Assembly (NCBI GenBank): GCA_030604525.1
Contig: JAUVVQ010000008.1
Location: forward strand, 1 to 64,000
From: Phycisphaerae bacterium
GTDB taxonomy: Bacteria > Planctomycetota > Phycisphaerae > Sedimentisphaerales > Anaerobacaceae
Length of the DNA stretch: 64,000 nt
Reading direction: 5' to 3'
This document shows positions 1,752 to 64,000 of the stretch, piece after piece. The notes beneath the pieces are model-generated. The model saw nothing but the letters and a program-made list of their open reading frames with translations, searched no databases and was not told the DNA's origin. A program made the position numbers and the translations under genes. Every line of letters begins with the position of its first letter. Position 1 is the stretch's first letter.

Positions 1752-4700
1752 TTAATCTTTACAATTTTCAGGGAAGTCGTCTGTTAATCCGATTTTGCTC
1801 ATATCGATTTGTTTAAAGCCGAGTTCGAACATCGGCGACCCGTCTTTAAGACGGAAGTTTTCATTTTTCAAATCGACAAACATTGGGTCGGCTGAAATAC
1901 TGTGTCTGTCGGTTCCTTTCTGCTGCAATTGCTGAAGTAATTCTCTACCGGCATCCAGATTGCCCTTGCTGTAATAGAGGTTATAATCGCCTGGATACGG
2001 CTCCACTTCCCTACGGGTTGCAAAAAACTGGCTTCTTTGGTCACTAAAATAAAGCACGTTCCTCTGAATCCTGCCTGGCCGAGGCCCGCCCCTGTAATAC
2101 ACCATATACCTCTGCCAATCCGAATCCGTTTCTTTGCCGGTATCCACTACGATGTTGTTTTCAACATGATTGTTTCTATCGTTTAAGACAATCCCCTGAG
2201 GCGCACAGCGGTAGATAATGTTCTCAGTAATTAAAGTTCCCCTTCCATTGGCGTCGAGACGAATCACGGCATCCGGCCCATCATTAACAATATCATGAAT
2301 GTAATTACGCCGGATAACATTGCCTTCACCGTTGCCCGTTATATTGATAACAGCACCATCGTTTCCAATCTTGCACATTCGGTACGCTTCATTGTCCTCA
2401 ATGATGTTATTATAAACATGTAAAAATCCCACTGTATAATCCCAACCTCTTGGGTCGCCAATTTCCGCCCAACGAATCTGCTTCGAGCATTCTCTGTTGT
2501 TTTTGGGTATTCTCGATGTATCGAAAAAATGGGCACGAACACCTGCAACCAGAACAGCTTTTCGAGGACCATCGTGTATGAGATTGTTCGCTACCCGATT
2601 GTCCCTGCTCTGCCAGATAATAATACCATGACCGCTTTTGTAAATCTCGCCGCAATGATGGATATGATTATTTATAATCTCGTTATGGAAACTGACATCT
2701 TTTGTGCCCGGGCCATAGCCGCAGACAAAAATCCCTGCCTGGCCGAGGTAATCAAACAAAGAACGCTGCACCCTGTTATATTGACTGTAAAGGTCAAAGC
2801 GAAGACCGGTCCCGCCGGTATTGGTGAAACGACATCCATCAACGAGACAGTGCGCTGTGGAACGGAAACGCAGCAGGGCACTCGCCTTGTCATACATTTC
2901 CCAGTCATGCTGAATGCCCGCATCGTCCTTTGTCCACACGTCGCGGTCGCCGTGGGTAAAGGTTAATCCTCTGAAAGTCAGATACTGAACCGGCACATCA
3001 ACCGGTCCCGTCTTGTCCACATTGCCTTCTACACGAATAAGCTCCCTTAGCTTCGGTGCGACAATATTATCACTCGGTTTTTCATCTTGAGGCCACAGGT
3101 ATAGTTCACCTTGTTGGGTATTGAGAACCCATTCCCCCGGCTCATCGAGTGCCTCAAGGACATTTTCGACCCACGCAGATGGTGGTATGTCTTCTTCCCA
3201 TGGCCAGGGTTTTATCGGATAAGTGGCCGGGACACTTGTCCGTACCACCCTCGTCTTCTCATCAACCGATGCCAATCCCAGCATATTCATCGTATAACCG
3301 GCTGGGAATACCCTTATCCCAACATCCTCCAGGTTTTCCCAGTTTTTTAGAGCCCCCTCGGGGAAGCGAAATGTGCTTTTATCCTCGATACTCGCAAATA
3401 CTCCCCGCCACCACTCATCCGGTGGTTTGCCCTCCGGCACCCATCCTTTTCCTCTTGCCCGCGGCAGCATTTTATCACCATCGAACAAACAAAAGAACCG
3501 CCACCTGCCTCCTTTAGTTTCGGGCATGTCTGCAACCCAGATTTTGCCTCGGGCCGCTTCCGGCAGTGAATCAGGATAATTTGTAAGTTTTGTCCAGCCG
3601 GAGATTTTCCTGGCACTGCTGAAGATAGGTGTTTCGCCCTGGTAAGCGGTATAGATAATCCTCTGTTTTTTACTTCCGGAATCGTCCAGACCGAAGACAA
3701 CGGTTTTATGAATTATATAAGTGCCGCCTCGAATAAAGACTGTGATATCACCCTCATCTTTTTGTTTTTTAAACTCTCTGACAGCATCACGAGCTTTTCT
3801 CAATGTTGCAAAGGGCTCCTCGATAGTGCCTGGGTTATTGTTGTTACCATCCGGTGCGACGTAAAAACTCTGGCTGTAAAGCCGTGTCGTATTCGGCTTC
3901 GGCGGTGTAGTATCACCAAGTGTCTCCGGCGCTATCTTCATAAGGCCAAAGTTATTGGGTTGCATGTCACCGGCAGTATCGGAGTCGGTGAAAATTACAT
4001 AACCGCCGTCGCTTGTCAGATTGATGTACTCACCGGCATTATTACCGGCAGGGTCACCATAAAGACCTTCCCACAGCAGCTTCCCGTTACTATCTGTCTT
4101 TACAACATAAGATTTCCAGATATCCGATGGACCGGCAGGATGACCTGAAGCAGAATACGAATCTTCATCTCCTGTCCCACCAACCATAATATATCCGCCG
4201 TCGAACGTTGCCTTGACACCGTAACATTCGTCACGAATATGAATAGCGTCATACCCTCGGGGCTGACCAAAGGTTTTATCCCACTGGAGGTTTCCGTCAC
4301 TGTCAACCTTTACCAGCCAGAAGTCAAATATGTCGGTATTATCGCTGATTTTGCCAAATACTAGTTTATGTCCCGCCAAAATGTATCCACCATCTTCGGC
4401 CAGGTCAGAATCAAAGAGGTCTTCCTGTTCATTACCCCCATAATTCTTATGCCATTGTATATTTCCCGAATCATCTGTATTAATAAGACAGAAGTCTCTG
4501 CCTCGTTCTCGAGATACTCCGGAAATCGTATAACCACCGGCGACTTCATACACCCTCATACCATGAGAAGCAGCAGATAGAGTTTTCTCCCATTGTAAGT
4601 TCCCCTCTGCATCTGTCTTTAGTATGGAACCTTGTCCGTCATCTGATATAAACAGATAACCACTTCGCCCACTGCCAACGTATCCCGTGGCAACAAATCC

Positions 4701-7649
4701 TCCATCGCCGGTTTCAGCTACACCTCGGATTTCACCATTGCCGACAGAGGCGTAGGTCTTTTGCCATACTATCTTTCCTAAGCTATCAAGTTTTACCAAG
4801 CCCCTCTCCTGGTCGCCTGAAACAGATAATGCTCCTGCAACAATGAAACCACCTGATACTTCAGTTACGAAGGTAGCAAAATCAGGTTCTCCGCTAACAC
4901 CAATAATCTTCTGCCACCGCAAATCGCCTTCGGCATCTGTCTTCACAACGAGCATATCAGAAGAACCTCTTTTCCACTCTGATGTTTGCCCTGCCATAAT
5001 GTAACCGCCGTCGCTACTCTGAAGGCCGTAATGAACATGGTCGCCATTGTCGGTACCATGCCCTTTATGCCACTGCATTTCAGGCACCTGAGTATGCGCC
5101 TGTTCCCCACACTTCATCGAACTCTGTCTCGGCAATCTACCCTCACCACCTGCATCCGGCGCTATCTTCATAAGGCCAAAGTTATTGGGCTGAGGGCCGG
5201 GCGCAGAATCAGAATCTGTACAGACTATATACCCGCCATCGCTGGTCAGATTGATGTGCTCTGCTGCATTATTACCTTCACTGGTAGGCGGGTAAAGTCC
5301 CTGCCATTGGACATTTCCATCGGCGTCTGTTTTTACCAGGTATGCCTTCCATTCATCTGATGGGCCAGCAGGATGACCGGAAGCAGAATACGGATATTCG
5401 TCCCCGGAGCCGCCGGCTATAATATAACCGCCGTCGGGAGTCTGCTGAACACCGTATGCCTCGTCGTGAATGTATTTAGCATCATAGCCCCTGGGCTGGC
5501 CGAAGGTCCTGTGCCACTGCTCTTTTTTATCGCTGCCGACCTTTAACAGAAAAAAGTCCCAGTTGACAGTTCCGTAAAAAGGTGACCGTGAGTGCCCGCC
5601 AAAAATATAACCGCCGTCGGCAGTTACATCAAAATCAAAAACCTGGTCGTCGCCGTCGCCTCCGTAATAGCTATGATAAGTCTCGTCGCCGTCACTGTCT
5701 GTCAGCACAAGAACCACATCCTGCTGACTTTTACCGCCACTATGTATCCATTGATTACCACCGACTGCAAATCCTCCGGGCACTTCCTGAACCCTCATAC
5801 CATGCATCGTAGAGGGCAGGATTTTGTCCCATTGTAAGTTCCCGTTCGAATCGGTCTTCATAATCGAGCCATTTCCGGAATCACATATAAACAGATAACC
5901 AGGCTTCGAGCCGCCGACATAACCGGTAGCAACGATGGAACCATCACTGGTTTCATCAATGCCCCGAATAGCATCTGCTCCGTCTTTATGGTAGGTCTTT
6001 GGCCATCCCGACAAGATATTTCCTGAGGTTTTATTAAGTTTTACAATGCATCTTTCCTGGTCACCTGAGTCGGACAATGCTCCTGCAACAATGTAACCAT
6101 CAGCTACTTCAGCCGAAATATTTGCCCAGTCATATTGATTAGTTGTTCCAATGATTTTCTGCCACTGCTCGTCTCCATCAGCATCGGCCTTGATAATAAG
6201 CATATCACTGGCACGTCCGGTTTCTTCATCTGTCATTCCTACCATGAGATAGCCGCCATCGCTGGTCTGCATAACATATTGCGGTTTTTCTCCAGTGTCG
6301 GTTCCCATACCATAATGCCACTGCATTTCAGGCGCCTGAGCAGGCGGCTCTTTCCCGGACTTTGTCGGACTCGGTCTCGGTGGGGTAGTGCCACCACAAG
6401 CATCCGGCGATATCTTCATAAGACCAAAATTATTGGAGCCCATGGAACCTGCGGAATCAGAGTCGGTGAAAATTATATAGCCGCCGTCGCTCGTCAGATT
6501 AACATACTCCGCTGCATTATCACCTATATCACCCTCGACCGGATAAACCCCTTGCCATTGCACATTTCCATCGCCGTCGGTTTTTACGAGGTATGCCTTC
6601 CATTCATCTGATGAGCCGGAAGGATGACCTGACTCAGAATACGGATATTCGTCTCCGGAGCCGCCCGCGATAATGAAGCCGCCGTCGGGCGTCTGCTGAA
6701 GCCCGTATGACTCATCGTGAATGTATTTGGCATCATAATCCCTGGGCTGACCGAAGGTCCGGTGCCACTGTTCTTTTTTATCACTGCCGACCTTCAACAA
6801 AAAAAAATCCCAGTTGACTGTTCCGTAAGAAGGTGACCGTGAGTGCCCGCCAAAGATATAACCGCCGTCAGTCGTTACAGCAAAATCAAAAACCTGGTCG
6901 TCGCCGTCGCCTCCGTAATAGTTGTGATAAATCTCGTTGCCGTCACTATCGGTCAGCACAAGAACCACATCCTGGTGGGCTTTTTCCTCTGAACGTATCC
7001 ATTGATTACCGCCGATTGCAAACCCTCCGCCCGCTTCTTGAACCCGCATACCATGCGTCGTAGAGCTAAGCGTCTTACTCCACAGCAGCTTTCCATTTGC
7101 ATCGGTCTTCAGGATGGAGCCATGTCCATCTTCTGATATAAACTTATATCCTTTTTCACCGCTGCCGATGTATCCGACGGCAATGATTCCGCTATCTTTT
7201 GTAATATCAATACCCCGAATAGAGCCATTTCCTTCAGAGGAATAAGTCCTTTTCCAAATGATATCCCCTTTGGCATCAAATTTTATCAGAGCTCTTTCCT
7301 GGTTATCTAAGATATCCAATGCTCCTGCAACAATAAAGCCGTCCGAAGCTTCAGTTACAAAAGTGGCATAGTCAGCTTTGCCTTTTGAACCAATAACCTT
7401 CTGCCACTGCAGGTCGCCTTCGGCGTCTGTTTTTACAACGAGCATATCAGAAAAACCTCTTCTCCCTTCCGATGTTTGTCCTGTCATAATGTAACCGCCG
7501 TCGCTGGTTTGCAAGCCGTAATGAACATGGTCTCCACTGTCTGTACCATGTCCTTTATGCCACTGCATTTCAGGCGCCTCGGCAGCATATACAACCGTTC
7601 CTGAAAGTATAAAAAGAACTACAACCAATAAAACTAATCGCTTAAACAT
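1752..7649 (-). CDS. Giant secreted protein: three ~415-aa propeller-like repeat domains plus C-terminal right-handed beta-helix (pectate-lyase-like)
   Basis: 1965 aa, signal peptide; three copies starting (A/V)PEMQWH(K/Y)G; repeated DGGYI.(A)GG motifs; C-terminal FYVAPDGNNNNPGTIEEPFATLRKARDAVRE...IFIRGGTY-type start followed by HNEIINNHIHH/NNLIHD parallel-beta-helix repeats. Confidence 0.8.
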   Translation of the reverse strand: MFKRLVLLVVVLFILSGTVVYAAEAPEMQWHKGHGTDSGDHVHYGLQTSDGGYIMTGQTSEGRRGFSDMLVVKTDAEGDLQWQKVIGSKGKADYATFVTEASDGFIVAGALDILDNQERALIKFDAKGDIIWKRTYSSEGNGSIRGIDITKDSGIIAVGYIGSGEKGYKFISEDGHGSILKTDANGKLLWSKTLSSTTHGMRVQEAGGGFAIGGNQWIRSEEKAHQDVVLVLTDSDGNEIYHNYYGGDGDDQVFDFAVTTDGGYIFGGHSRSPSYGTVNWDFFLLKVGSDKKEQWHRTFGQPRDYDAKYIHDESYGLQQTPDGGFIIAGGSGDEYPYSESGHPSGSSDEWKAYLVKTDGDGNVQWQGVYPVEGDIGDNAAEYVNLTSDGGYIIFTDSDSAGSMGSNNFGLMKISPDACGGTTPPRPSPTKSGKEPPAQAPEMQWHYGMGTDTGEKPQYVMQTSDGGYLMVGMTDEETGRASDMLIIKADADGDEQWQKIIGTTNQYDWANISAEVADGYIVAGALSDSGDQERCIVKLNKTSGNILSGWPKTYHKDGADAIRGIDETSDGSIVATGYVGGSKPGYLFICDSGNGSIMKTDSNGNLQWDKILPSTMHGMRVQEVPGGFAVGGNQWIHSGGKSQQDVVLVLTDSDGDETYHSYYGGDGDDQVFDFDVTADGGYIFGGHSRSPFYGTVNWDFFLLKVGSDKKEQWHRTFGQPRGYDAKYIHDEAYGVQQTPDGGYIIAGGSGDEYPYSASGHPAGPSDEWKAYLVKTDADGNVQWQGLYPPTSEGNNAAEHINLTSDGGYIVCTDSDSAPGPQPNNFGLMKIAPDAGGEGRLPRQSSMKCGEQAHTQVPEMQWHKGHGTDNGDHVHYGLQSSDGGYIMAGQTSEWKRGSSDMLVVKTDAEGDLRWQKIIGVSGEPDFATFVTEVSGGFIVAGALSVSGDQERGLVKLDSLGKIVWQKTYASVGNGEIRGVAETGDGGFVATGYVGSGRSGYLFISDDGQGSILKTDAEGNLQWEKTLSAASHGMRVYEVAGGYTISGVSRERGRDFCLINTDDSGNIQWHKNYGGNEQEDLFDSDLAEDGGYILAGHKLVFGKISDNTDIFDFWLVKVDSDGNLQWDKTFGQPRGYDAIHIRDECYGVKATFDGGYIMVGGTGDEDSYSASGHPAGPSDIWKSYVVKTDSNGKLLWEGLYGDPAGNNAGEYINLTSDGGYVIFTDSDTAGDMQPNNFGLMKIAPETLGDTTPPKPNTTRLYSQSFYVAPDGNNNNPGTIEEPFATLRKARDAVREFKKQKDEGDITVFIRGGTYIIHKTVVFGLDDSGSKKQRIIYTAYQGETPIFSSARKISGWTKLTNYPDSLPEAARGKIWVADMPETKGGRWRFFCLFDGDKMLPRARGKGWVPEGKPPDEWWRGVFASIEDKSTFRFPEGALKNWENLEDVGIRVFPAGYTMNMLGLASVDEKTRVVRTSVPATYPIKPWPWEEDIPPSAWVENVLEALDEPGEWVLNTQQGELYLWPQDEKPSDNIVAPKLRELIRVEGNVDKTGPVDVPVQYLTFRGLTFTHGDRDVWTKDDAGIQHDWEMYDKASALLRFRSTAHCLVDGCRFTNTGGTGLRFDLYSQYNRVQRSLFDYLGQAGIFVCGYGPGTKDVSFHNEIINNHIHHCGEIYKSGHGIIIWQSRDNRVANNLIHDGPRKAVLVAGVRAHFFDTSRIPKNNRECSKQIRWAEIGDPRGWDYTVGFLHVYNNIIEDNEAYRMCKIGNDGAVINITGNGEGNVIRRNYIHDIVNDGPDAVIRLDANGRGTLITENIIYRCAPQGIVLNDRNNHVENNIVVDTGKETDSDWQRYMVYYRGGPRPGRIQRNVLYFSDQRSQFFATRREVEPYPGDYNLYYSKGNLDAGRELLQQLQQKGTDRHSISADPMFVDLKNENFRLKDGSPMFELGFKQIDMSKIGLTDDFPENCKD
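3920..7580 (-). repeat. Three in-frame tandem copies of a ~1.24-kb coding unit inside the giant gene
   Basis: The string cactgcatttcaggc recurs at 7561, 6319 and 5071 (spacing 1242 and 1248 bp, both multiples of 3), with long near-identical stretches between copies. Confidence 0.85.
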
Positions 7650-22286: not shown

Positions 22287-24923
22287 TTACTTTTTTGACA
22301 ATTCGAAGTCCATCGGCTCGTCGCTTTTCATACGTATCCAGATTACAAGCTCCGGTTTGCCTGTTGTATCGAAAACAACACCCTGCTCAAAATCAGAGCC
22401 GTTTTCCATTTCCCTGCCGTTTATTTCCAATCGAGCTTTTACGTCTCTGCCCGGCCAGTTTTTAATTTCAAAAGCGGGGTGATAAATCGGGGAATCTTCA
22501 CTTCCGTTTAATTCAAATGAAAAGCTGTTCTTTTCAGGCTCAATTTGATATGACCGTTCCTCTGGGTTATAACCTTTGTTCTTAGCACCCGTTACCTTAA
22601 TAAGCTTTGGCGGATTATTCCAGGATTTGGCAAGGGACATAAGCTCTTTGGCTTTTTTGTTTGTCAATCCAACCATCAAATAATCTTCTGTGGGGTTTCC
22701 CCAAACCAAAGATGAATGCGCCGCCCGGTCATTTGCCTCCGCACTTCGTCCGTCCGATGCCATCTGATTAGCTGGATAATGATTAGCCCAGTGAAAAGCG
22801 GAATAATCCCGGCGGACAAGAGGAGGAACAAAAGTTTCGACTGTCGAGCCCGGTGGATAAATATAAAACGGCTTATATTCGGATTTCATATTCACCATTG
22901 TAACACAAGCCGGTTTCGGCTCGCCGGGATAGGGATAATGATAGCTCCAGTCAAATACAATTTTGTTACCTTCTTCGTCAATTACTGTAAACGCTTTGAG
23001 GTCAATATTATCTTCCGGTTTCGTACCCGGTTCGCTGTAAAACATCGTCTCCTGCCAGCCGCCTTCACCACGGGCTACGTAACGAATACCCACACCATCA
23101 GGATAAAAAGTCCAGTACTCATCCGCCCACGGCCCGTTGTCATCATCGTAAGGGAACTTATATCGCACGTCTACTTCAGCATAGCGCCAGTGAACAACAG
23201 CCCGTGCATCCGTATTTTCGATAATCCGAACGTGACTGTGCCGACACTGCTTGTCGGACATATGTTCACAACAGCCGCGGGCCTCATCTTCACCCCATAC
23301 CTCACAGCTCTGGTCACCACACCATTTACCATTATCAGTTACAAATCCAATCCCGTATCTAAGCCCCCGCCAGAAGGCAAATCGTGCGGGGCTATTCTCG
23401 AATTTGACCAGCACATCCGGATGCTCGCTTACCCGCCACATATTATCCCACGTCTCATAGTAGTCCAGCTTGCAATATTCCGCCCCGAAGTTATCCGCTT
23501 TATTACCGTTTGGATTGGCGGGAAAGTGCCTTTCATCCATATCCGGATTCATACGCACATGCTCGCTCGGTTTATATAATTCATACGATTCTTTAATTTG
23601 CTCCCAGCTTAACGGCTCATCGTAGATTTTCACTTCATCAATTAAACCGTCGAAGCCGAAAATTGCCGGATACGTCCACTGACGGTGGGCATTTGTCGCT
23701 CGCATTTTCTCGTTATTCAGACCAATGATTACATCTTTTTCATCCGCCATTCGGATTTTCTCTTCATCAACGTCCGGAGCAATCTCGCGTTTAGTCCTGT
23801 TGCAGCTTATAAGCTCGCCATCGAGGTAAATACAAAGCAAGCCGTCTTCCGTGTCGAACGTCCCAGCTACATGTCTCCACTGAAAACGTTCGAGTTTGTT
23901 CTTACTTATAACTTTCTCCCAGATATTCCCCACTTTGGCCATAAAACCGATGTGACCTGCATCATCAATTCCAAGATAATAACCCCTTTTGCCCCAACTG
24001 CTTTGATGTACGATAGGCGACCATTGCCAGGAATATGCCCCTATCGCAATCCAGGCTTCAACGGTAAAACCGTCACTTACCTGCGGTGCTTGTGACGCAG
24101 ACAATCTAACCGAGGAAAAATAACCATCGAATCCTAAAGCTGTCCCCGAAACGCCTTTTTTCCATAAGCACTTATGTCCGGATATTTCACATTCCGTGCC
24201 TCCGATTGTTTCTTGGGTTAAATCCTTCTGTTGGTAATCGCGGCCAGTCATCCCTTCATTAAACTTCCACCATACCGCCGGCCGGCCAAGGACACCGTGT
24301 ATTATTTTATTCCCTTCTATTGCCACCGCCGGGGCCTTTGTCAAATGGGGCTGCTTGAAGGATATCTCTTCGATGCCGTCTTCGCTCATCCGCAGAACCT
24401 GCCTTGCCAGATTCGCCGGGTCTTGCCAGCTATTAATCTTCTCCGTCCCTTTCCTGATTGTTCGTATCACCTTGCCCGAAGGATATATCCTGAAATACTC
24501 ATCAACAAAGCTATCCCAGCCAAGCTTCGTAAAGTCGGGGACATAACGCCAGTGAACCATGACCTGCTCCGCTGTATTTTTGATTAACCTGACATGCGAA
24601 TAGCGGTTAATCTTATCCGGGCAAATCTTCGTGCCATCGCCTTTGCGTTCAATTATCTCATCGAAATACCATTTTCCTTTATTTGTCTGCAAATAGGGCA
24701 GAAAGCTTGATTCCCGACAAAACGTAACTTTCCCCCCGTCTGAAAGATGAACTACGATATCAGCATACTTGCCGAAGCTGTCCTTGTGCTGCTCACCAAT
24801 ATCAACTTTAGTATAATAGGCATAAAACTCATCCTCGGCCGCCCCGCTTACATTACTGTTTAAAGATACTACTGTTACGACCAAAACCGCAAATAAAAAC
24901 CGCATAAATTTTACCGTCCTCAA
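22287..24923 (-). CDS. Secreted protein with central LamG/concanavalin-like domain flanked by two related domains
   Basis: 878 aa; signal peptide; LamG-3-like GFTVEAWIAIGAYSWQWSPIVHQSSWGKRGYYLGIDDAGHIGFMAKVG...WRHVAGTFD...GLIDEVKIYDEPLS; flanking domains share the pattern ADIVVHLSDGGKVTF../..SHVRLIKNTAEQVMVHWRY. Confidence 0.75.
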   Translation of the reverse strand: MRTVKFMRFLFAVLVVTVVSLNSNVSGAAEDEFYAYYTKVDIGEQHKDSFGKYADIVVHLSDGGKVTFCRESSFLPYLQTNKGKWYFDEIIERKGDGTKICPDKINRYSHVRLIKNTAEQVMVHWRYVPDFTKLGWDSFVDEYFRIYPSGKVIRTIRKGTEKINSWQDPANLARQVLRMSEDGIEEISFKQPHLTKAPAVAIEGNKIIHGVLGRPAVWWKFNEGMTGRDYQQKDLTQETIGGTECEISGHKCLWKKGVSGTALGFDGYFSSVRLSASQAPQVSDGFTVEAWIAIGAYSWQWSPIVHQSSWGKRGYYLGIDDAGHIGFMAKVGNIWEKVISKNKLERFQWRHVAGTFDTEDGLLCIYLDGELISCNRTKREIAPDVDEEKIRMADEKDVIIGLNNEKMRATNAHRQWTYPAIFGFDGLIDEVKIYDEPLSWEQIKESYELYKPSEHVRMNPDMDERHFPANPNGNKADNFGAEYCKLDYYETWDNMWRVSEHPDVLVKFENSPARFAFWRGLRYGIGFVTDNGKWCGDQSCEVWGEDEARGCCEHMSDKQCRHSHVRIIENTDARAVVHWRYAEVDVRYKFPYDDDNGPWADEYWTFYPDGVGIRYVARGEGGWQETMFYSEPGTKPEDNIDLKAFTVIDEEGNKIVFDWSYHYPYPGEPKPACVTMVNMKSEYKPFYIYPPGSTVETFVPPLVRRDYSAFHWANHYPANQMASDGRSAEANDRAAHSSLVWGNPTEDYLMVGLTNKKAKELMSLAKSWNNPPKLIKVTGAKNKGYNPEERSYQIEPEKNSFSFELNGSEDSPIYHPAFEIKNWPGRDVKARLEINGREMENGSDFEQGVVFDTTGKPELVIWIRMKSDEPMDFELSKK

Positions 24924-24927
24924 CTTT

Positions 24928-27651
24928 CTAATTATTTTCTTTCCTCTCGTTTTTTGTTATCGCAAATTTCGTATTTGAGTTTGACCGCATTTTTACCCAG
25001 ATGATTTTTTTCAGCCTGCCGTCGGTATCCCTTACAACCCCCTGCCTGAAATTTTCCCCTGGTTTAATAGTTTTGCCGTTAATTTTCAAATCGGCTTTGC
25101 TTTTACCGCCCCAGTTTTTGATGACAAAACAGGGATTAAAAACCGGAGTGTTCTCCGCTGCTTCCAGCTTAAATGACATCTGCGGTTTGCCAAATTCCAG
25201 AACGTATGCCCTCTGTTCCTTTTTATAACCGCTGCTTAAACATCCCTTGGGACCGGTTAATTTCGGCGCTTCATTCCACGACCTCGACAAGTTCACAAGC
25301 TCCTCAATCCCCAGCTTAGTCATACCTTCCAGTTTCAGCTTTACTCCATAAGGCGCTAACGTATTGGTCCTTTTCTCGTAAAACGGGAAATCGAGATGGG
25401 ACAGGGCCGTATGTCCCACCCGGGTATTATCAAAGCGTTTTCTGCCATCGTTTTTTATTAATGCCACAGGCCAGTGATTCCACGCCAGAAAATCCCCATG
25501 TCCGGCTTTGCCTCCGCTCGACGTCCATCTCTGCGTTAATTCCCTGATAATAATGAACGGGTCGTATTCATCTACATAGTTTACCTTTTGCACACTGATA
25601 TTATTCGGTGCGTCAATCTGGAAATCTCCCTGTTTGCCCCAGTCGTATTCCTTGTATTCGCCCTTTGTATTTGCCATTGTCAAAGTGGTTTTTCTTTGGA
25701 CGATGTTTTCCGGTCCCCTGCCCGGCCCGTAAAGCACCAGGGTCTCCTGCCATTCACGATAACCATCAAAGGTTTTATCGGAAAAGTCACTCCACAGGAC
25801 CATCTTCACCGCCGCAACGCCGTCAGGATAAATATAATAATACCAGTCAGCCCATTCTCCCCAGCCGGTTTTGGAATTCTTATATCCGATATTATGGAAA
25901 ATATCTATCAAGGGATATCGCCAGTGCACCAATACACGGGCATCGGTGTTCTCGAGTATTCTGACGTGGTTGTGGTAATTAACCGTATCAGACATCGGCT
26001 CCTTACAGGGTTTGTCTTCTATACAGAATATCTCGCAAAACTCATTGGAATACCAATTGTTATTTTCAGAAACTATCATCGGGATATATCCGGCACCGTG
26101 CCAGAATATGAATTGCGTAGGGAGTCCGTTGAAATCGACCACGATATCGGCATCCTTACCGAGCCGGAACATATTGTCCCAGGCCTCGTGATAAGAAAGG
26201 TTTGTGTACTTTGCACCGAACCGGTTTTGTTTTGCCGATGCCGGAAGCACCCTCCTGGGCAGAGCAGGGTTTGTCACCTGCCTGCCTGGCGGCTCGTAAT
26301 TTTTAAAGGAGCGTTTTAACAGTCCCGGACTCAAGGCCTTATCATATATTTTCACCTCGTCAATAAGACCGTCAAACGAATACGGACTTTGAAAAGCCAT
26401 TCGCTCCAGATATTTTGCTGCTCTCGGCCTGCCTTTGCCGATTCTCACCGGCTCGGCCGCAGTTTCTACGTCAGAGAACAATTCGCTTTGCTCGGCAATG
26501 ATTTTTGAAGCAATCTGCTCACCGTTCAGGTAAAGAGCTATTCTGCCCGTCGCTTTATCATAAGTCCCCGCCGTATGATACCACCGCCGGGGTGCAAGCT
26601 TCTGCTCAGAGAGAAGCTCATTCCATTGATAGCCGGCACTTACCTTAAAAGCTATATGGCCGTCTGCATCCATACCCAGGAAATATCCTTTTTCGTCTCC
26701 CTGCTGAACAATGGGACACCAGTTCCAGGGATAAGCGCCCACGGCAATCCAGGCCTCGAGCGTCAAGCCGGTCCGCAAATCCGGCGATTTGGATAAAGGC
26801 AGATTCACCTCTGTATTATAACCGTCAAATTGTATGGCGGTTCCTGAAACACCTTTTCTCCAAAGTGTTTTCGGGCCGGGTATGTCGCTGAGATGACCTG
26901 TAATGCTTTCCTTTGTCCTGTCACCGAGGCCCTCATCAAATCGCCAGTATCGCACCGGCTCGGCAACCAGCATCTCCTTTACGGCGCTGCCCTTGACGCT
27001 CTCCGCTTTAACCGTAGAGCTTGGGTATTTAGTCTCTACACTCTTTATGCCGTCCGGACTGAGAGTAAATATCTGCGTTACCTTATTCATCGGGTCCTGC
27101 CAGTCGCTTATTTTTTCCGTTGCCTTTTTAACTTCCCGGGTGACTTTCCGTTCGGGCGTGATTGTGTAGTATTCGTCAACGAAATTAACCTGTTTAACGC
27201 CCCGATTCGGATTGCCCTGCTTAAAGTCGGAAAGATAGCGCCAGTGAACCTCCACCTGTTTGTCGGTATTTTTTATAATTCGGACATAGGAATAGGCATT
27301 TACTTTATCAGGCCTTTCTTCAGTGCCGTCTCCGGTGCGCGGAACTATTTGCTCTACATACCACTTGTCTTTCTTGGTCTTCCAATACGGCAGATAGCTC
27401 GAACCACGCTGGAATACGAATCGCTCTTCATCATTAAAATGCACCACGATGTCGGCATAATCCCCTGTTCGGGAGTATTTCTCAAAGTCCTGGCCGGCAT
27501 CGAGCTTCGTATAGTATGCATAAAAATCGGCCCCGTCGTCCGCTGCTTTTGCAGCCATCAGGCCGCAGCCGAGTAATACAGCGAAGAGTAAGCAGGCACT
27601 TTTGGTAACTCCAATATTTCTTTGAATGCCGGACATCATAAACCCTTTCAT
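24928..27651 (-). CDS. Paralogue of the preceding LamG-containing secreted protein
   Basis: 907 aa; same domain order; LTLEAWIAVGAYPWNWCPIVQQGDEKGYFLGMDADGHIAFKVSAG...WYHTAGTYD...GLIDEVKIYDKALS. Confidence 0.75.
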   Translation of the reverse strand: MKGFMMSGIQRNIGVTKSACLLFAVLLGCGLMAAKAADDGADFYAYYTKLDAGQDFEKYSRTGDYADIVVHFNDEERFVFQRGSSYLPYWKTKKDKWYVEQIVPRTGDGTEERPDKVNAYSYVRIIKNTDKQVEVHWRYLSDFKQGNPNRGVKQVNFVDEYYTITPERKVTREVKKATEKISDWQDPMNKVTQIFTLSPDGIKSVETKYPSSTVKAESVKGSAVKEMLVAEPVRYWRFDEGLGDRTKESITGHLSDIPGPKTLWRKGVSGTAIQFDGYNTEVNLPLSKSPDLRTGLTLEAWIAVGAYPWNWCPIVQQGDEKGYFLGMDADGHIAFKVSAGYQWNELLSEQKLAPRRWYHTAGTYDKATGRIALYLNGEQIASKIIAEQSELFSDVETAAEPVRIGKGRPRAAKYLERMAFQSPYSFDGLIDEVKIYDKALSPGLLKRSFKNYEPPGRQVTNPALPRRVLPASAKQNRFGAKYTNLSYHEAWDNMFRLGKDADIVVDFNGLPTQFIFWHGAGYIPMIVSENNNWYSNEFCEIFCIEDKPCKEPMSDTVNYHNHVRILENTDARVLVHWRYPLIDIFHNIGYKNSKTGWGEWADWYYYIYPDGVAAVKMVLWSDFSDKTFDGYREWQETLVLYGPGRGPENIVQRKTTLTMANTKGEYKEYDWGKQGDFQIDAPNNISVQKVNYVDEYDPFIIIRELTQRWTSSGGKAGHGDFLAWNHWPVALIKNDGRKRFDNTRVGHTALSHLDFPFYEKRTNTLAPYGVKLKLEGMTKLGIEELVNLSRSWNEAPKLTGPKGCLSSGYKKEQRAYVLEFGKPQMSFKLEAAENTPVFNPCFVIKNWGGKSKADLKINGKTIKPGENFRQGVVRDTDGRLKKIIWVKMRSNSNTKFAITKNERKENN

Positions 27652-53358: not shown

Positions 53359-56300
53359 TTAATCTATTCCCAGTGCCTCTTTAATCTTCATCTCTGCTGT
53401 CTTTTCAGGTTTTTTTTCTTCTTTTGCTTCTCTCAATTCTTTCGGCACCGGCGGTTCAACAAAATGTTTGACTTTCGCTTCAAGATAAGGTTTGAATGCT
53501 GTCCCTGCCGGTATAAGATGACCCAGTATCACATTTTCTTTCAAACCTTGAAGCTGGTCCACTCTACCAACCAAAGAAGCTCCCGTCAAGACCTTTGTAG
53601 TTTCCTGGAAGCTTGCAGCAGCTATAAAGCTGCCTGAGCTAAGAGAAGCTTTGGTTATACCCAAAAGCAGTGTTTCCGCAGTAGCAGACTTCGGCTTCCT
53701 GCCTTTAGCTGATGCTCCGCCGATACTCGCAATCTTATCATTTATGGAAGCGAGCTCTTCTTTAGCAATAATCTGTCCTTCTTCCAGGTCTGGTGAATCG
53801 CCAGAATCAGATATCTTAATGCAGCCCGCCAACCTCTGGTTCTCATGCTGGAAAACAAATCTATCAACGATTTCTCCAGGCAAAAATGAACTATCACCTA
53901 TGGATTTAATCTTAACCTTCCGAAGCATTCTCGAACAGATTATCTCAATATGTTTGTCGTTGATATTGACATTCTGCGAACGATACACATTTTGGATTTC
54001 GCCGGTCAGGTATCTATGCAGCGCCTCTTCTCCTTTAATCCGGAGAATATCATGCGGGACTAAGGGACCATCGGTTAAAGTATCGCCGGCTTCTACAATA
54101 TCACCTGTATGAACATTTAAGTGTCTGTCACGCGGAACATGATGGTCTTTTTCCATCCCGCTTTCACCGCGAATTATAATAGTCATTTTACCTTTACGCT
54201 GCCCGCTCTTGAGCTCCACTTTACCACTGATTTCTGCCATCGCTGCAGGGTCCTTGGGCTTCCGGGCCTCAAATACCTCGGTAACTCTCGGCAAACCGCC
54301 TGTGATATCCTGAGTACCTATGGTAGCTCGAGGCAGGTGAGCCAGAAGCTGACCGGCATCTACCTGTTCATCCTCGGAGACCTCAATCCTTGCACCAGCA
54401 GGCAAATAATGAACATCAAGAATCTTCCCGTCAGAATCTTCTATTACTATCTGAGGATGTTTATCACCTTTGTGTTCTATCACAACCGGTTTCCCGGTTT
54501 GACCCTTACGCTCCTCCTCAAGGCGCGTCGTCTCACCTAAGACAACATCCATAAAACGAATCCTGCCGGATACCTCTGCAAGAATCGGTGTACGGTGTGG
54601 GTCCCACTTGAAAAGGATTGTTCCTTCTTCGATTGTCTGCCCATCCTTAATAATAAGGGTCGCTCCATAGGGTATCTTGTACTTATCAAGCTCTCTTTCT
54701 TTATCATCCAGGACAACCATTTCTCCATTGCGCCTCAAAGCAACATCTATTTGCTCGCCATTTTCTTCAAGAGAAACCGCATTCACGTCTCGATACTGTA
54801 TCTTACCACTATATGCTGAACGCTGCTCATTTTCGAGAATCGCCCTGGAAGCTACACCGCCGGTGTGGAATGTACGAAGTGTCAACTGTGTGCCCGGCTC
54901 GCCGATTGATTGAGCAGCTACTATACCAACTGCTGAACCTTCTTCGACTAATTGGCTGGTGCTCAAATCCCATCCATAACACTTCGCGCATATACCCAGC
55001 GGGTTATCACAAGTCAACGGGCTTCTAACTCGTATAGAATCCAGCCCAAGTTCCTCAATCTTTTTAGCTGCTTCACCGGTAATAACCTCATTTTCACGAA
55101 CAATCATCTCATCAGTAATCGGATTTCGAATATTATCTCTTGCAGTCCTGCCAACTATAAGCTCGGACAACGGTACATCAACCTGTTCTCCCCTGCTGAG
55201 AGTGTTCTTGGTTATACCTTGAAGTGTGCCGCAGTCATGTTCTGTTACAATTACATTCTGAGAAACATCGATAAGCTTACGAGTCAGATAGCCGGAATTA
55301 GCGGTCTTTAAAGCCGTATCTGCAAGACCCTTACGAGCTCCATGTGTTGAACTAAAGTATTCCAGCACGGTCATCCCTTCACGGAAGTTAGACTTAATGG
55401 GAGTTTCAATAATCTCACCGCTCGGCTTTGCCATCAAAGCTCTCATCCCCGCAAGCTGCTGTATCTGGTCAACACTTCCTCGTGCGCCAGAATCGCTCAT
55501 CACGTATACCGGATTCAAATAAGGTTTCCCCTCGTCTGTTGTATCATTTTGGAAACCTTTCATCATCTCATTTGTAACAGCTACTCGGGCGTGCGTCCAG
55601 GCATCGATAAGCTGATTATACCTTTCTCCTTCCGTCAAAATACCCGCCTGATAATTCTTCACAATCTCATGCACTTTCTTTTCAGTTGCAGCAATAATAG
55701 TCTGCTTTTTCTCCGGTATCTTCAAGTCTCTAAGCCCGATGCTCAGCCCTGAAAGCGTTGCATATTTGAAACCCATGCTTTTGATATCATCTAACAGGTC
55801 AACTGTTTTAGAACTGCTTGCAATCACAAAACAGTCACTAATTACCCGCCCTAAGAGCTTTTGCGACATCAAAATATTGTAAAACGGCATTTCTTCCGGC
55901 AACATATCATTAAAAATACATCGACCTACAGTTGTCTCGATTGTCTTGTATCTTTTATTCTCATCCGAAGAAACTTCTGCCTTGGCTTGAGGGCTTTTCT
56001 CAGTTACAACTTTCTTGTCGTTTTCAATTCTTACTTTTATCTTGGCCTGAAGCGAAACCTTGCCCACATCGTAAGCCATAATTGCCTCGAAAGTATCCTT
56101 GAATGCCGTCCCTGTACCTTTTGCCTCTGAATTTATATATGTCAAATAATAGTTACCCATCACCATATCCTGCGAAGGGCCTACCATTGGTCCTCCGTTT
56201 GCGGGTGAGAATATATTACCTGTGGTCATCATTAAGGTATAAGCTTCCGCCTGCGCCTCTACACTCAAAGGAAGATGAACCGCCATCTGGTCGCCATCGA

Positions 56301-57675
56301 AGTCAGCATTGAAACCTTTGCAGGCCAGAGGATGCAGCATAATAGCGTTACCCTCAACCAGTATCGGCTCAAATGCCTGGACTCCCATTCGGTGAAGGGT
56401 CGGTGCACGATTCAACAACACTGGATGCTGATGAATAACTTCTTCAAGCACATCCCATACCTGCTCATCACGCCTTTCTATCATTCTTTTTGCGCTTTTT
56501 ATAGTATCAGAAAGGCCATGTTCTTTAAGCTGGCGAATAATAAACGGCTGATACAGCTCAAGAGCTATTTTCTTCGGCAAGCCGCATTGATATAATTTCA
56601 AGTTAGGTCCAACTACAATCACAGAACGTGCTGAATAATCGACACGTTTACCAAGAAGATTCTCGCGAAAACGACCTTGTTTACCCTTAATCATATCTGT
56701 CAGACTCTTCAAAGGGCGGTTATTACTGCCGAGTACCGGCCTTCGACAACGGTTGTTATCCATAAGAGAATCTACCGCCTGTTGAAGCATCCTCTTTTCA
56801 TTACGGATAATCACTCCGGGGGCATTAAGGTCTATAAGTTTCTTAAGACGGTTATTCCGGTTGATAATTCGACGGTAAAGGTCATTTAAATCACTTGTCG
56901 CAAAGTTACCGCTCTCAAGAAGAACCAAGGGACGCAAATCCGGCGGGATAATAGGAATAACCTCAAGAACCATCCATTCAGGTTTATTACCACTGGTTTT
57001 TATGGCCTCAACTTCCTTGAGCCGTTTTGTAAGTTTATTAAGCTTTTGCTTGCTTTTAGTCTTGTCAATAGCGGCTCTTGAGTCAACACTCACTTTATCC
57101 AGGTCTAGACTTTTCAAAAGTGCTTTTATAGCTTCGGCTCCCATTAATGCCTTGAACCCACCGGAAGCTAAACCATATTTAGCAGTCGCTTCACGATACT
57201 CTTCTTCACCAAGAAGTTGCCCCTTCTCCAGGGGACTATCCCCCGGCTCGACAACAACATAGTCCTGGAAGTAAATCACTTTCTCAAGGTCAGAGTTTTT
57301 CATATCCAAAAGCGTGCCAAGATGATTGGGAATCGCCTTGAAGAACCAAATATGAACGACGGGCGATGCCAGGTTAATATGTCCCATACGTTTGCGACGA
57401 ACCCTGCTATGAGTAACTTTGACGCCGCAGCGGTCGCAAATTATCCCCTTGTACTTGGTTCCTTTATACTTGCCGCAGGCACATTCCCAATCCCTTTCGG
57501 GACCAAAAATACGTTCGCAGAACAGCCCGTCTTTTTCAGGACGGTACGTTCGGTAATTTATTGTCTCCGGCTTACGAACCTCGCCAAACGACCAGCTGCG
57601 AATATCATTTGGACTGGCTAATGAAATCTTTACCGAACCATAATCATTTATCCGGTCGTAAATATTGCCCAACAT
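53359..57675 (-). CDS. rpoC: RNA polymerase beta-prime subunit
   Basis: [22 protein letters not shown] zinc ribbon; [16 protein letters not shown] active site; C-terminal [25 protein letters not shown]. Confidence 0.98.
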
Positions 57676-57722
57676 AAAATCTCAACTCCTTAAGTTAATT
57701 TGCGAAATTAATACCGCTCAAT

Positions 57723-60700
57723 TTAAAAAACCATCCCTCCGAGCTGCTTTTTTTCGAGTTGAATATTTAATCCCAAACCTCTTATTTCATTACACAGAAC
57801 ATCGAAGGATAAAGGCGTTCCGGCATCAAGAATGTTTTTACCTTTTACCATTGATTCGTATATCTTTGTTCTGCCTTCTACGTCATCACTTTTAACCGTA
57901 AGTATTTCCTGTAGAGTGTAAGCGGCACCGTATCCTTCCAGTGCCCAGACTTCCATCTCTCCGAAACGCTGTCCGCCTGTTCTCGCTTTACCGCCAAGGG
58001 GCTGCTGTGTAATTAAACTGTAAGGACCCGTTGCACGAGCATGAATCTTGTCATCTACGAGGTGATGCAGTTTCATCATATAGATATATCCAATGGTTGC
58101 GCTTTGGTCGAATGGCTCGCCTGTTCTGCCGTCATACAACTGGGCCTTAAGGGTATTCGGAGGTATCTTAATGAAAAACTCATCATAAACAGGGGACTCT
58201 TTATTCTCTTCATACTGCTTTTTTCGTGTTTCCATACGCTCGTTTGCTTCTGTAATAAGTTCTTCTATATCTTTCTCGTTAACCCCGTCAAATATCGGGG
58301 TAACTGCCCGAAAGCCCAATACTTTTGCGACCCATCCAAGATATGTTTCCAAAATCTGCCCTACGTTCATTCTACTCGGAACACCAAGCGGATTAAGCAG
58401 GATATCAAGAGGCGTGCCATCTTCGAGAAACGGCATATCTTCCTCAGGTTTTATCTTGGCAATTACACCTTTGTTACCGTGTCGACCTGCCATTTTGTCA
58501 CCGATAGACAACGTCCGCTTGATCGCTATGTAAATTTTCACCATCTCCAGAACGCCGCTCGGCAATTCATCGCCGTGCTTTAGATTGTCCACTTTCCGTT
58601 TCTTTTCTTCTTCAAGCTCGCCGATTTTCCCACGGTATTCGTCAATGACCTTCTGAACATTTTCTCTAACCGATGCCGGCTTGACCCATTTGATATCAAA
58701 GCTTTCTACCTGCTCGTAAATGACATCATCATCGTCACTGGCTCCCACTTTTTGCTTCGTGGAAGGGTCTACGATTGTAACATCAAACTTCTCATGAACC
58801 GCTTCTATCATCTGCCTGAAGAGCACACATTCTTTGGCCTGAATTTTGTTTTTATATTCTTTTATCTTTTCTTTGATTGTTTTTTCCTGTTCATCTTTTC
58901 CGGCACCGCGCTTAGCAAACCTTTCCGTCCTTATTACAACACCTTCATAGCCGCTCGGCAATTCCAACGAATCATTTTTAACATCTTCTCCAACCCTGCC
59001 GAATATCGCATGAAGCAATTTTTCTTCAGGAGTTAATTCCGTCTTGCTCTTCGGCACGACCTTACCAACCAGAATACTTCCCTTTTGAACTCTCGTGCCT
59101 TCTCGAATCACTCCATACTCATCCAGATTGCGAAGTGCTTTTTCACCAACATTTGGAATATCACACGTAAATTCTTCTCTGCCCAGCCGGGTCTCACGTA
59201 CCTCAGCGGTGAATTCATCTATATGGATGCTTGTAAATTCATCGTTCTTTAAAAGTCTCTCACTAATAACAATAGCGTCTTCAAAATTAAAACCATCAAA
59301 AGAGACAAAACCGCAAAGAACATTCCTTCCAAGGGACAGAACCCCACCGTCCGTACCTCCACCATCTGCGATTACCTGGTCTTTTTTTACTTCATCTCCA
59401 AGTTTCACTATGGGTTTTTGATTCAGACATGTCCTCTCATTCAGTCCGGCAAATTTAACGAGATTATATTCATCAGTATCATCAATTACTATATGTTGAG
59501 AGTCCACAGCAGTAACCGTCCCGCTCGTCTCAGCACGAACCACCATACTGGAATTCCGTCCAACCACCTCTTCCATCCCCGTTCCTACCAGTGGTATATC
59601 TTTTTTCAACAGCGGAATCGCTTGTCGCTGCATATTCGAACCCATCAAGGCTCGGTTGGCGTCATCGTGCTCCAAAAATGGAATAAGTGCCGCAGAGATT
59701 CCTACCGTCTGTTTCGGCGACACATCCACATAGTCAACTTCATCACTGGAAACCTGTGCCAGCTCACCGTTCTTCATCGCTAATACCATACCTTTGGGTA
59801 TCCTCTGCGTCTTCTGGTCCACGGTGTTGGGAGCAGCAATTATCGACCGCATATCTTCGTCAGCTCGCAAATACTTAACATCACCGGTTACCCTACTGTT
59901 CTTTACTTTAACATAAGGAGTAACAAGAAAACCGTACTCATCAACCGAAGAAAAAATGGCCAATGACGAAATCAATCCTATATTCGTACCCTCCGGAGTC
60001 TCAATAGGGCAAATCCTGCCGTAATGGCTTATGTGAACGTCACGAACCTCAAAACCGGCTCGCCTTCTATTCAGGCCGCCAGGCCCTAAAGCAGAAAGAC
60101 GCCTTTCATGCGTCAGTTGACTCAAAGCATTGGTCTGGTCAACAATCTGACTTAGCTCGCCACGACCAAAAAAATAATTAATGCTGCTCGATACGCTCTT
60201 GGAGTTAACCAAATCCGCTATCTTAATCTCTTCTTTCTCAGCAGTCCTTTTAGAGCTCATACGTTCCTGAATAGTTCGGCGAAGCTTCAGCATGCCTTTG
60301 CGAATCTCTTCAGAGGCAAGCTCATCTATGGTCCGCACTTTTCGGTTTCCAAGGTGGTCAATATCATCAACCTCACCCTCATTATTTCTTAAAGCCATTA
60401 TGTATCGGATAGTATTCTCGAAATCTTCAGGCCTGAGAGTCATTTCTTTTTCGTCAACAGATTGTCCGAACTTGCGATTCAGACGGAATCTGCCGATTTT
60501 GCCCAGACGATACCGGTTGATATCAAAAAACTTATCTTCAAAAAACTTCTTGGCCTTCTCCGCGTTCAGCGGATTGCCGGGTCTTAATCGTACATAAAAT
60601 CTCAACAACGCCTGCTCATGGTCCTCGCATCTGTCCTCAGCAAGGGTATTTAAAATAATCTGGTCACCAACAGATTCGATAACCTCCACTTTACCGATTG

Positions 60701-63014
60701 CTTTGGATTTGCTATCATCTTTTGGAAAACCATATTCCACCAGCTCTGTCTTTGCCCACCTTTTTAGAAGATTATCTCCGCAATCCTCTGGTTTATCCGC
60801 CTTAAAACCTGCCGTAAAATGCATCCCCAAACTATCCTTCAAAGATGCTGCTAATCCCAGATACCCATCACTGATTTTACCTGTTTTAATGCTGTGGAAA
60901 AAGTAAATCCCCTGTTTGTCAGGCAATCCCTTTTTACACTTCTTTAAGTCCTTGATAACAGTCCAGTCATCCTTACTCTTTATAGCATCTTTACATTCCT
61001 GATAAAAATCTTCAAGGTATGCATTCTTATCCCACAACTTCTTAATCTTATCTTTTGATTTACCGGAATCCTTGTTAAATCGCGGCTGCTCGCTTTCAAT
61101 TAACCTCGCCTCAACCGCCTTTAACTCGGATTTCTTCAATTGCTCCTTCGTTTCTATGTATTTAAAAGCAAACCCGCCCGTTCGCGTCCCCTTGACTCCT
61201 TTTACCATATATCTTTGGCGAAGTTCATCTTGATGCTTTTCCAGCCATTGACGAACATCTTTGCTTTCCTTATCCTTGCTTTTGCCAAGCTTCTTTTCAG
61301 CTTCTTTTTCGCTGAATTTAATCCGGGGAGCCACGCCTGTAGCAATCTTCGAATTCTGCAGCAAAGCAAGATTGTCACCGATTTGTGTGCCGGCCTTGAC
61401 AATTATCTCACCTGTTTCAGTATCGACAATTGAACCTACCACCCACATATCCGGTTTCAGCCCGGAAACAGGAACAGTCTTCGTAGGATAAAACAGGCGG
61501 ATAATATCTTCCGTCCTCCCGTACTCAGGACTTATCGCACGCAAAAGAACCGTGGCTGGTATCTTACTTGACTTGTCTATTTTAATAACCAAAACATCCT
61601 TGCGCGTAACGGCTATCTCTACCCAGCTGCCTCGCTCCGGTATAATCCTTCCTCCATGAAGAACCCTGTCGCCTACTTTGCTTTCGATAAGAAAATCCAC
61701 ACCGGGACTTCTATGCAATTGACTTACTATAACCCTGATAGCGCCATTAACTATAAACTCTCCGCCTCCTACCATAACCGGCATCTGGCCAATGTATATG
61801 GCCTGCTCAGTTAAATCCTCGCCTTCTTTGACGTGCAATCTGCAGGTGATTTTTAGAGGATATGCGTAAGTTAATCGGAGCTGACGACACTCTTTCGGAG
61901 TATAACGGGGTTTTTCAAGCTCGTAATAAAGGTACTCCAAAGACATATTCTTGTCATAACTTTCGACCGGGAATATTTCACGAAACAATGCTTCGAGTCC
62001 TGCGTTTGCCCTTTGGGTGGGCGCCGTATCTTTCTGCAGAAAACTGTCATAGCTCTGCCTCTGGATGGCAGCAAGCGGCGGTATCTTAACAGCATCAGGA
62101 ATGCTCCCAAAATTCCGAACAGTAAGTTTGCTTGGAGGAATCGGCTTGATAACCTTGCGTGGTATTGTCACCACACTGTCCTTTTGGAAAATCGCATCCC
62201 GAACTTTCCCGAAATTCCGAACAGTCTGCCTAGGTGGCTTTGCAATCCCACGTAGATATCCTTCTGCTTTCTTCTCGATCTCGGCTATGTTTCTGTCCGC
62301 ATAATCCCTCAAATATCCCTTTAGCATGCTATCATCGCTTGGTCTGCCGGAAAAATGCTTTTTTAACCGTCCTTTTAAGCCCTGGCTTCCAGGCTTCTTC
62401 TGCTTATCTTTACCACCTAAGCCAACATATCCTTCGTTTACGCTACCACCATAAGGTCGGAAAAAATAAACGCCTTGCCATTCCGTCTTTAGCTTATTTT
62501 TACCAAATTCATCGCCAGTATCAACATCCGAAATCCGCTGCCAATCCTTATCCTTTTGGAGACCATCAATATTGTCACAACACTTTCTAAACAGCCTTTC
62601 AAGTTTGTCACTCTTTTGAAACTCTTTTTCCCATTTTTCAGGTTTCCACGGCTCCTTAACATTAAGCCGAGGCAACCTATAGTAAGGCGGTTCTCTATCC
62701 CATTTTTCCGAAGGATAGGTATAAATCAAGCTCTCTTCAAGGGCTTGAAGTTCTGTTTCGCTTAAAGCACCATTTTCATCGGTACACACATACTTAAACT
62801 CCATCCCCGGAAACTCATCTTTGAGGCCCAGAAGCCCCTCTATATACATCTTGCGGAGCTTCTCAAAATGCTCACTCAGGAACTCATCTTGCACCTTTTT
62901 ATACCGCGGATCTTTCAGGCCTATTGCTGAAAGCTCTCTACAACACTTCCCAAGCTTCTTTAGAAAATCACCTTTACACCACCACGGTTTATCTTGGACG
63001 TTTTTCGAAACCAT
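57723..63014 (-). CDS. rpoB: RNA polymerase beta subunit with two GIY-YIG-like extra domains
   Basis: RpoB core: [102 protein letters not shown]; strong SD TAGGAGCGTAAG before ATG at 63014. Extra blocks at aa 1-~262 and ~558-773. Confidence 0.97.
   Translation of the reverse strand: [1763 protein letters not shown]
60696..61343 (-). other. Insert 2: internal RpoB block, homologous to insert 1
   Basis: [33 protein letters not shown] (aa 615-647) precedes [33 protein letters not shown] (aa 701-733); lies between ...LLQNSKI and [22 protein letters not shown] of the RpoB core. Confidence 0.75.
62229..63014 (-). other. Insert 1: N-terminal extension of RpoB with permuted GIY-YIG-like motifs
   Basis: [31 protein letters not shown] (aa 88-118) precedes [22 protein letters not shown]...LKGRLKKHF (aa 180-221). 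Confidence 0.7.
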
Positions 63015-63082
63015 CTTACGCTCCTATAATTCAATACATAACGTGCAGGTTTATCTATCCGCTATACGCTACACGCTATCTT

Positions 63083-63586
63083 TTAAGCTAATTCAACGAC
63101 CGCACCTGCAGCTTCGAGCTGCTGCTTGACGCTCTCTGCTTCCTCCTTGCTGAGACCTTCTTTGACTGGTTTGGGAACAGCATCAACTAATCCCTTGGCT
63201 TCTTTCAAGCCCAGGCCCGTCAATGCCCTGACTTCCTTGATTACCTGTATCTTCCTGTCGCCGAATTCTTTCAAAATTACATTAAAGCTGCTTTTTTCTA
63301 CCTCCGCTTCACCTTCTGCTCCGGCAGCAGGACCTGCCATCATAACAGTGCCGCCAGACGCCGGCTCAATTCCATGCTCATCCTTGAGATAATCAGCAAG
63401 CTCCTTGGCCTTCATCAATGTCAGAGAAACAATCTTGTCGCCAATTTCTTTAATCTCCTTGCTCCATTCCTTTTTCTCTTCGGCTTTGGCTGCTGCCTTC
63501 TTCTCCGGTTCTTTTTTTACTTCTTCCTTCGCTTCTGCTTTCTTTCCCTTATCTTTTGCTTTTTCGTTCGTTTCTTCTTTAGACAT
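63083..63586 (-). CDS. rplL: Ribosomal protein bL12 with K/E-rich N-terminal extension
   Basis: C-terminal domain [70 protein letters not shown]; first ~40 aa [40 protein letters not shown]. Confidence 0.97.
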
Positions 63587-63745
63587 ATTAAACTAACTCC
63601 TATTCTTTCAATGCCAGAGGTAGCCGATGGACCCGTCTTGCACACTTCTGCAAAACGTATATTATCAATTCAGTCCTGTCGTTTAACCCGCAAAAGGCGG
63701 GACAACCACGCAGCAACAATAATCAACACTTCATTTATAAAACAA

Positions 63746-64000
63746 CTAAGCTGCTTGTTTTTCTTCTTCTTCAGAAAGTTTTTTGATACATCCTGCTATA
63801 ATCCCCGCAGGCGATACCAAAGCAGAAACCAATCTCGCTGCCGGCGACTGAGCCAGACCAACTATCTGCGCCTGCAGCTCACTTCGCGTCGGCATCTTCG
63901 ATAAATCATCAGCCGCCTTCATATCTAATAATGAACCTTCAAGAAAACCGCCCTTTATTTCTAAAGCTGCTATCTTCTTGCCCCATTCCTTCAGCTCTTT
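63746..64000 (-). CDS. rplJ: Ribosomal protein uL10, C-terminal part (runs off window)
   Basis: Minus translation ...[84 protein letters not shown]. Confidence 0.9.

Follow-up and report, generated by a model that had tools for sequence, protein, structure and literature searches.

A laterally moving family of GIY-YIG domains within the beta and beta prime subunits of RNA polymerase in Sedimentisphaerales and their relatives

The rpoB locus and its two inserted blocks

The window, a stretch of 64,000 nucleotides from a Phycisphaerae bacterium, encodes an enlarged beta subunit of RNA polymerase on its reverse strand (Table 1). The gene rplL lies upstream of rpoB and rpoC lies downstream, and a single copy of rpoB is present in the assembly. 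The RpoB product is 1763 aa compared to about 1252 aa in most relatives, which have neither of the two additional blocks. Beta subunits in the PDB match the product only from residue 299 onwards and the match is interrupted at residues 546–786; these gaps coincide exactly with a block at the N-terminus and a second block in the beta lobe. A preliminary description made from the letters alone had reported an oversized ORF with these two blocks, and the PDB gaps bear out its coordinates. The insertion point of the lobe block corresponds roughly to residues 320–335 of E. coli beta, as interpolated from the boundaries of the PDB match. The two blocks align to each other with 30% identity over 223 columns (blastp E 2e-12), and the alignment score of 158 exceeds that of 1000 shuffles (40 ± 6.6), so that their proposed homology to one another also holds.

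Table 1. Features of the rpoB–rpoC region of the window
Feature	Position	Strand	Remarks
rpoB (RNA polymerase beta subunit) with two GIY-YIG modules	57723..63014	(-)	1763 aa ORF; Pfam Rpb2 domains, PDB beta matches
rpoB native core			about aa 298-557 and 774-1763
N-terminal GIY-YIG module	62229..62996	(-)	aa 7-262; Y, Y, R, H, E and N all present
N-terminal module C-half motif LEESLI...PRLN	62661..62741	(-)	aa 92-118; E93, N118; precedes the GIY half
N-terminal module GIY...YVG motif (GVYFF..GYVGL)	62418..62474	(-)	aa 181-199
Lobe GIY-YIG module	60696..61343	(-)	aa 558-773; beta lobe loop; catalytic Arg replaced by Ser (S728)
Lobe module C-half motif VEARLI...PRFN	61074..61115	(-)	aa 634-647; E635, N647
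Lobe module GIY...YLG motif	60855..60911	(-)	aa 702-720
Junction downstream of N-terminal module	62089..62228	(-)	native RpoB start repeated imperfectly
rpoC	53359..57675	(-)	1438 aa; without a module in the window genome

The imperfect repeat that follows the N-terminal module consists of TVRNFGKVRDA and, 34 residues later, a second copy reading TVRNFGSIPDA. The same family of modules is found in rpoC of other genomes, where it occupies three sites. Elsewhere in the window, positions 63083–63586 encode a ribosomal protein L7/L12 with a charged N-terminal extension of about 45 residues, and the regions 1752–7649 and 22287–27651 encode a 1965-aa beta-helix/PQQ-repeat protein and two neighbouring laminin-G-domain proteins, for which secretion is probable.

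GIY-YIG assignment and permuted motif order

The preliminary description derived both blocks from a GIY-YIG nuclease, and this derivation is supported through their relatives. When searched alone, the two blocks of the window fall below Pfam GIY-YIG detection, but they are homologous to modules that pass: PF01541 is above its cut-off of 22.6 bits in the modules of genomes G035 and G042 (27.6 and 24.2 bits), and it is matched by 7 of 18 modules, with PF20815 matched by 6 of 18. The alignment of 18 modules from which the latter counts come has minor errors in two rows, G071 and a partial G205. A profile of the module family retrieves UvrC, and profile-profile alignment matches the UvrC profile to the GIY half of the module with an E value of 6.5e-10. 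The E..LI..P..N half, which is upstream in the module, aligns separately to the downstream part of UvrC (E 9e-4). Since the two halves match UvrC separately and with their order swapped, the module is identified as a circular permutation of the domain. The motif lines of the preliminary description were correct, though it left unremarked that E..LI..P..N comes before GIY..YIG. This permuted order, with E..LI..P..N followed by GIY..YIG..R..H, is featured in 23 of the 24 copies identified. The remaining copy, the RpoC module of G045, has the same elements in canonical order and lends natural support to the permutation. The RpoC site of this copy (L038, about 702–920) is also that of the G138 module (L092, about 699–885), so that one site holds two different circular permutations.

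The catalytic positions are well preserved. The Gly of YIG, the His and the Asn are present in 24/24 modules, the Tyr of GIY and the Tyr of YIG in 23/24 each, the Glu in 22/24 and the Arg in 21/24. All six catalytic residues (Y, Y, R, H, E, N) occur together in 20 modules, and the four that are short of one include the lobe copy of the window, which has no Arg. No columns of the family are more conserved than those of the active site. An AlphaFold2 model of the window lobe block is of middling quality (pLDDT 73, pTM 0.66) and places strands on FKYIE, GIYFF and GYLG and helices at the expected motifs. Foldseek analysis of this model gave no PDB match, but the method follows sequence order and is therefore uninformative for a permuted domain. 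A model of the lobe together with the module was of low confidence (pLDDT 59) and was left unused. Searches with the modules found no match among PDB sequences and nothing convincing in PHROGs. A similarity of the window RpoB to DUF4160 was sub-threshold and was judged to be due to chance.

The modules resemble other members of the GIY-YIG superfamily (PF01541, PF20815; the UvrC N-terminal domain and I-TevI) in their GIY, YIG, R..H, E..LI and P..N motifs. They differ in being embedded within RNA polymerase subunits, in their permuted order (all but one copy) and in that no long or separate DNA-binding region was recognised in them. Judged from sequence, the two blocks of the window belong to the GIY-YIG nuclease domain family, and their activity as nucleases is inferred only.

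Distribution and lateral movement of the modules

A family profile built from seven blocks was used to search whole genomes in six frames, with overlapping sets that comprised 161 genomes for the order, a draw of 397 for the class and one of 392 for the phylum. The searches identified 24 modules, spread over 22 genomes that all belong to a single class (Sedimentisphaerales and relatives), and every module lies inside RpoB or RpoC. Carriers make up 19 of the 161 genomes of the order. No strong profile match was obtained outside long RpoB/RpoC ORFs in the six-frame searches of these sets; most of the weaker matches correspond to UvrC, which was identified from its motif at 21 loci, and outside the class the phylum set (392 genomes) gave only UvrC-like matches in ORFs of 437–793 aa. 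The probability that all 24 copies would fall in rpoB or rpoC through random landing in coding sequence is about 1e-58, a rough value as the copies are not independent. A pattern scan of named genomes identified five carriers, labelled as Planctomycetota, Phycisphaerae or Sedimentisphaerales metagenome-assembled genomes. Phyla beyond Planctomycetota were covered only by this strict pattern scan and by the PDB, phage and plasmid searches. A tblastn search of phages with one module, a plasmid search that gave one weak match, and pattern scans of viral contigs did not find a source for the module, each with a reach limited to close relatives. The carriers are metagenome assemblies throughout, with no transcript or protein evidence.

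The modules occupy six sites in total, of which five are surface loops and one is the N-terminus of RpoB, numbered here on the insert-free proteins of G001. These are the RpoB N-terminus (the window and G170), the RpoB lobe at about 270 (the window and eleven others), RpoB at about 1100 (G113, G117, G079), RpoC at about 515 (G023, G072, G280), RpoC at about 712 (G045, G138) and RpoC at about 1078 (G042, G205). A whole family spread over six RNA polymerase sites is beyond what the preliminary description could see. The internal sites are all loops that vary among relatives; the insertions take the place of some native loop residues and leave every invariant motif intact. In three module-free relatives of the carriers, G017 (L043), G018 (L040) and G033 (L042), the insertion loop of the RpoB lobe contains a lysine-rich spacer of about 20 residues. 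These lobe spacers are possibly scars of lost modules, or they may merely be longer loops.

A second inserted domain, unrelated to the GIY-YIG module, is found in the RpoB lobes of G047 (L035) and G170 (L104). The two copies share 38% identity, occupy different lobe loops and are absent from all others of the 298 genomes searched. Their only Pfam match is PF21790, a putative OGG-like DNA glycosylase family, and it is sub-threshold (E 0.021 and 0.0081). The RpoB of G170 carries this domain in addition to its N-terminal GIY-YIG module, and a two-insert RpoB like that of the window has therefore arisen in another family of the class.

The module tree does not follow the insertion sites, requiring 11 site changes where the minimum is 5, which is no better than shuffled labels. 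The N-terminal module of the window is of a subtype that groups with the modules of the G096 RpoB lobe, G079 RpoB-1100 and G205 RpoC-1078, and the lobe module groups with the lobe modules of G013, G095, G093 and G071 and with the RpoC module of G072. The preliminary description had left open whether the gene was invaded twice or one block was duplicated within it. The first option stands, as the nearer relatives of each block are at other sites and in other species; the module tree and the AU test, which rejects a single clade for the two modules (p-AU 0.00011), rule out the internal duplication of one into the other. The two copies of the window are on this phylogenetic inference separate acquisitions. 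The AU test also rejects a single clade for the RpoB-lobe modules (2.5e-7), the RpoC-515 modules (3e-4) and the modules of the sister hosts G093 and G094 (1e-5), and is only borderline for the three RpoB-1100 modules as a clade (0.054).

In the host tree, which is based on the RpoB core, the families form clades, and this tree disagrees with the module tree. Carriers and module-free genomes are intermixed within genera, and sister species differ in carrying other subtypes or empty sites, the latter seen inside the same genera. The RpoB core of the window has a long branch on this tree (0.30 compared to a median of 0.096). The clearest example is the pair G113 and G117, in which DNA identity is 97.4% across the module compared to 86.8 and 87.1% in the rpoB flanks and 87.2% in rpoC, and the step in identity lies no more than about 60 bases from the ends of the module. 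The dS of the module is 0.09 compared to 0.71 for the core (p 1e-18). As the module identity is below 100%, it is not explained by reads shared in assembly. No clear co-conversion of the flanks was found in this exchange. The RpoC module of G072 is a cross-site chimera whose ends resemble the G023 RpoC module and whose middle resembles the G093 RpoB module. Within modules, dN/dS is about 0.09–0.13, a sign of purifying selection. The anatomy of the modules and their mobility are considered to be established with very little doubt.

Origin and role of the inserts

The best explanation is a homing-like nuclease insert that is tolerated by its host and kept in the mature polymerase, a reading that could as readily prove wrong as right and in which cleavage, retention and homing are all inferred. 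GIY-YIG modules insert in frame into rpoB or rpoC and would remain as extra surface domains of the polymerase. The module domain would nick or cut a copy of the polymerase gene without a module, and repair off the module-bearing copy would install the module there. Modules might persist without self-splicing because only landings in a tolerant loop or at the N-terminus of an essential gene would be viable, and also because exact loss would be rare. They pass between species and among the six sites of beta and beta prime, and copies recombine with one another. The sole grounds for retention as translated protein are the intact frame and a dN/dS near 0.1, and presence in the mature enzyme is an inference.

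This homing-like spread is ranked first because of the module-limited edges of lateral movement, the empty sites, the partial catalytic decay and the precedent of the mORFs of fungal mitochondria (PMC3630166). These mobile ORFs, for example those of Allomyces and Glomus atp6, are endonuclease ORFs (LAGLIDADG or GIY-YIG) in phase with the host gene and without splicing, which duplicate the terminal sequence of the host and spread between species (PMC3630166). The modules are alike in each of these respects, including duplicated terminal host sequence; however, mORFs sit at gene ends and supply a replacement C-terminus, whereas the modules are mostly internal and are inferred to be retained domains of a bacterial polymerase. 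The repeated RpoB start behind the N-terminal module of the window is reminiscent of the duplicated host ends of the mORFs.

Lateral spread into empty alleles, as expected of homing, is met by the empty sites in congeners and the module-limited exchange. A single-target homing endonuclease is also expected to re-enter one site, and this is not met, as one subtype occupies four sites and one site hosts unrelated subtypes. Further points against homing-like spread are that no long DNA-binding region was recognised, that the G113/G117 exchange is without clear flank co-conversion, that restriction to RNA polymerase exceeds what site tolerance alone predicts, that a second unrelated and weakly assigned OGG-like family is present in two RpoB lobes, in one genome alongside an N-terminal GIY-YIG module, and that four modules, including the window lobe copy, have lost a catalytic residue. 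The description of the module as selfish in the preliminary description is plausible but unproven.

The explanation ranked second, held tentatively, is a useful nuclease tethered to the polymerase that has DNA or RNA as its substrate while transcription proceeds, for instance to counter phage or foreign DNA as it enters, or to incise damaged DNA in a transcription-coupled manner, and that is swapped by ordinary recombination like defence genes. It holds this rank because a function accounts better for the confinement of the modules to RNA polymerase, for the number of their sites and for the presence of a second DNA-acting-like domain. The modules are exclusive to RpoB/RpoC in the whole-genome six-frame searches, several independent sites have reached the same outcome, and both the dN/dS of the modules and the retention of catalytic residues across deep divergence fit a useful enzyme, as does the weak likeness of the second RpoB-lobe domain to a DNA glycosylase family. 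Single modules also weakly match the defence-candidate profiles PDC-S14 and UzuA (E about 2e-4), but these PADLOC matches are most simply generic GIY-YIG similarity. The very patchy distribution, with gains or losses within genera, argues against a useful tethered nuclease, as do the lack of a fixed site, the copies that have lost catalytic residues and the failure to identify a partner gene. A broader version, considered unlikely, is that RNA polymerase is a docking platform for mobile DNA-acting domains, with GIY-YIG modules and the OGG-like domain of G047 and G170 retained, cutting or processing transcribed DNA, and swapped between species in the manner of defence genes.

It is improbable that the modules merely decorate the surface, without catalytic relevance, and alter or mask the places where phage proteins, antibiotics or factors bind the polymerase. 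The surface loops of the lobe, beta-1100 and three places in beta prime are suitable for such a role and four copies are without a catalytic residue, but the most conserved columns of the family are those of the active site, which shielding alone would not need. It is highly improbable that the inserts are removed as an unrecognised intein or intron to leave a mature polymerase without them. Homing-endonuclease inteins are known in RNA polymerase genes (PMC1635734), and the modules resemble them in lying in frame in essential genes, in their endonuclease-type domain and in their patchy lateral distribution. In contrast to inteins, the modules have no splicing domain, their variable junctions are without a conserved Cys/Ser/Thr start or His-Asn end, they sit in tolerant loops and not in invariant motifs, and one subtype may occupy several sites. 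No intein family in Pfam matches any part of the window RpoB, the frame is open throughout the insert, and an Rfam scan of 57000–64000 gave no intron or other RNA family up to E 1. Both the intein and the group I/II intron readings were rejected on the lack of a splicing domain, junction residues and intron RNA. An assembly or binning artefact is close to refuted: every carrier is a metagenome-assembled genome, but the inserts are intact and in frame in 22 genomes at six recurrent sites, the five named records include at least two independently named assembly series, dN/dS is low and copies are near-identical yet not identical.

Few proteins are as conserved, or as seldom transferred, as beta and beta prime. 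To our knowledge, no described bacterial RNA polymerase has mobile nuclease domains. The literature on GIY-YIG domains and RNA polymerase returned inteins, organellar introns and mORFs only and no bacterial polymerase with such domains; subscription papers were mostly outside the scope of this search and the absence is not proof. The lineage-specific BEAN and HABAS insertions likewise put homologous domains into more than one position of beta and beta prime. They follow the tree of life (PMC11515920), whereas the modules move laterally among close relatives and their distribution departs from the host tree. The text of that survey mentions neither nuclease nor GIY-YIG (PMC11515920). A mobile family of catalytic domains that enters and leaves the polymerase of close relatives at six places, unspliced, would amount to a novel form of tenancy in an essential enzyme. 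Such a family would make it possible to test how inserted enzymes are accommodated by an essential complex, whether homing in bacteria depends on self-splicing and whether an RNA polymerase is able to bear a nuclease of its own. Full-length rpoB is a widely used phylogenetic marker, and inserts of this kind would disturb its alignments. In the carrier G096, contig C214 (26650–27582) contains a partial second rpoB (residues 948–1258) in addition to the full module-bearing copy, representing either contamination or a genuine second copy.
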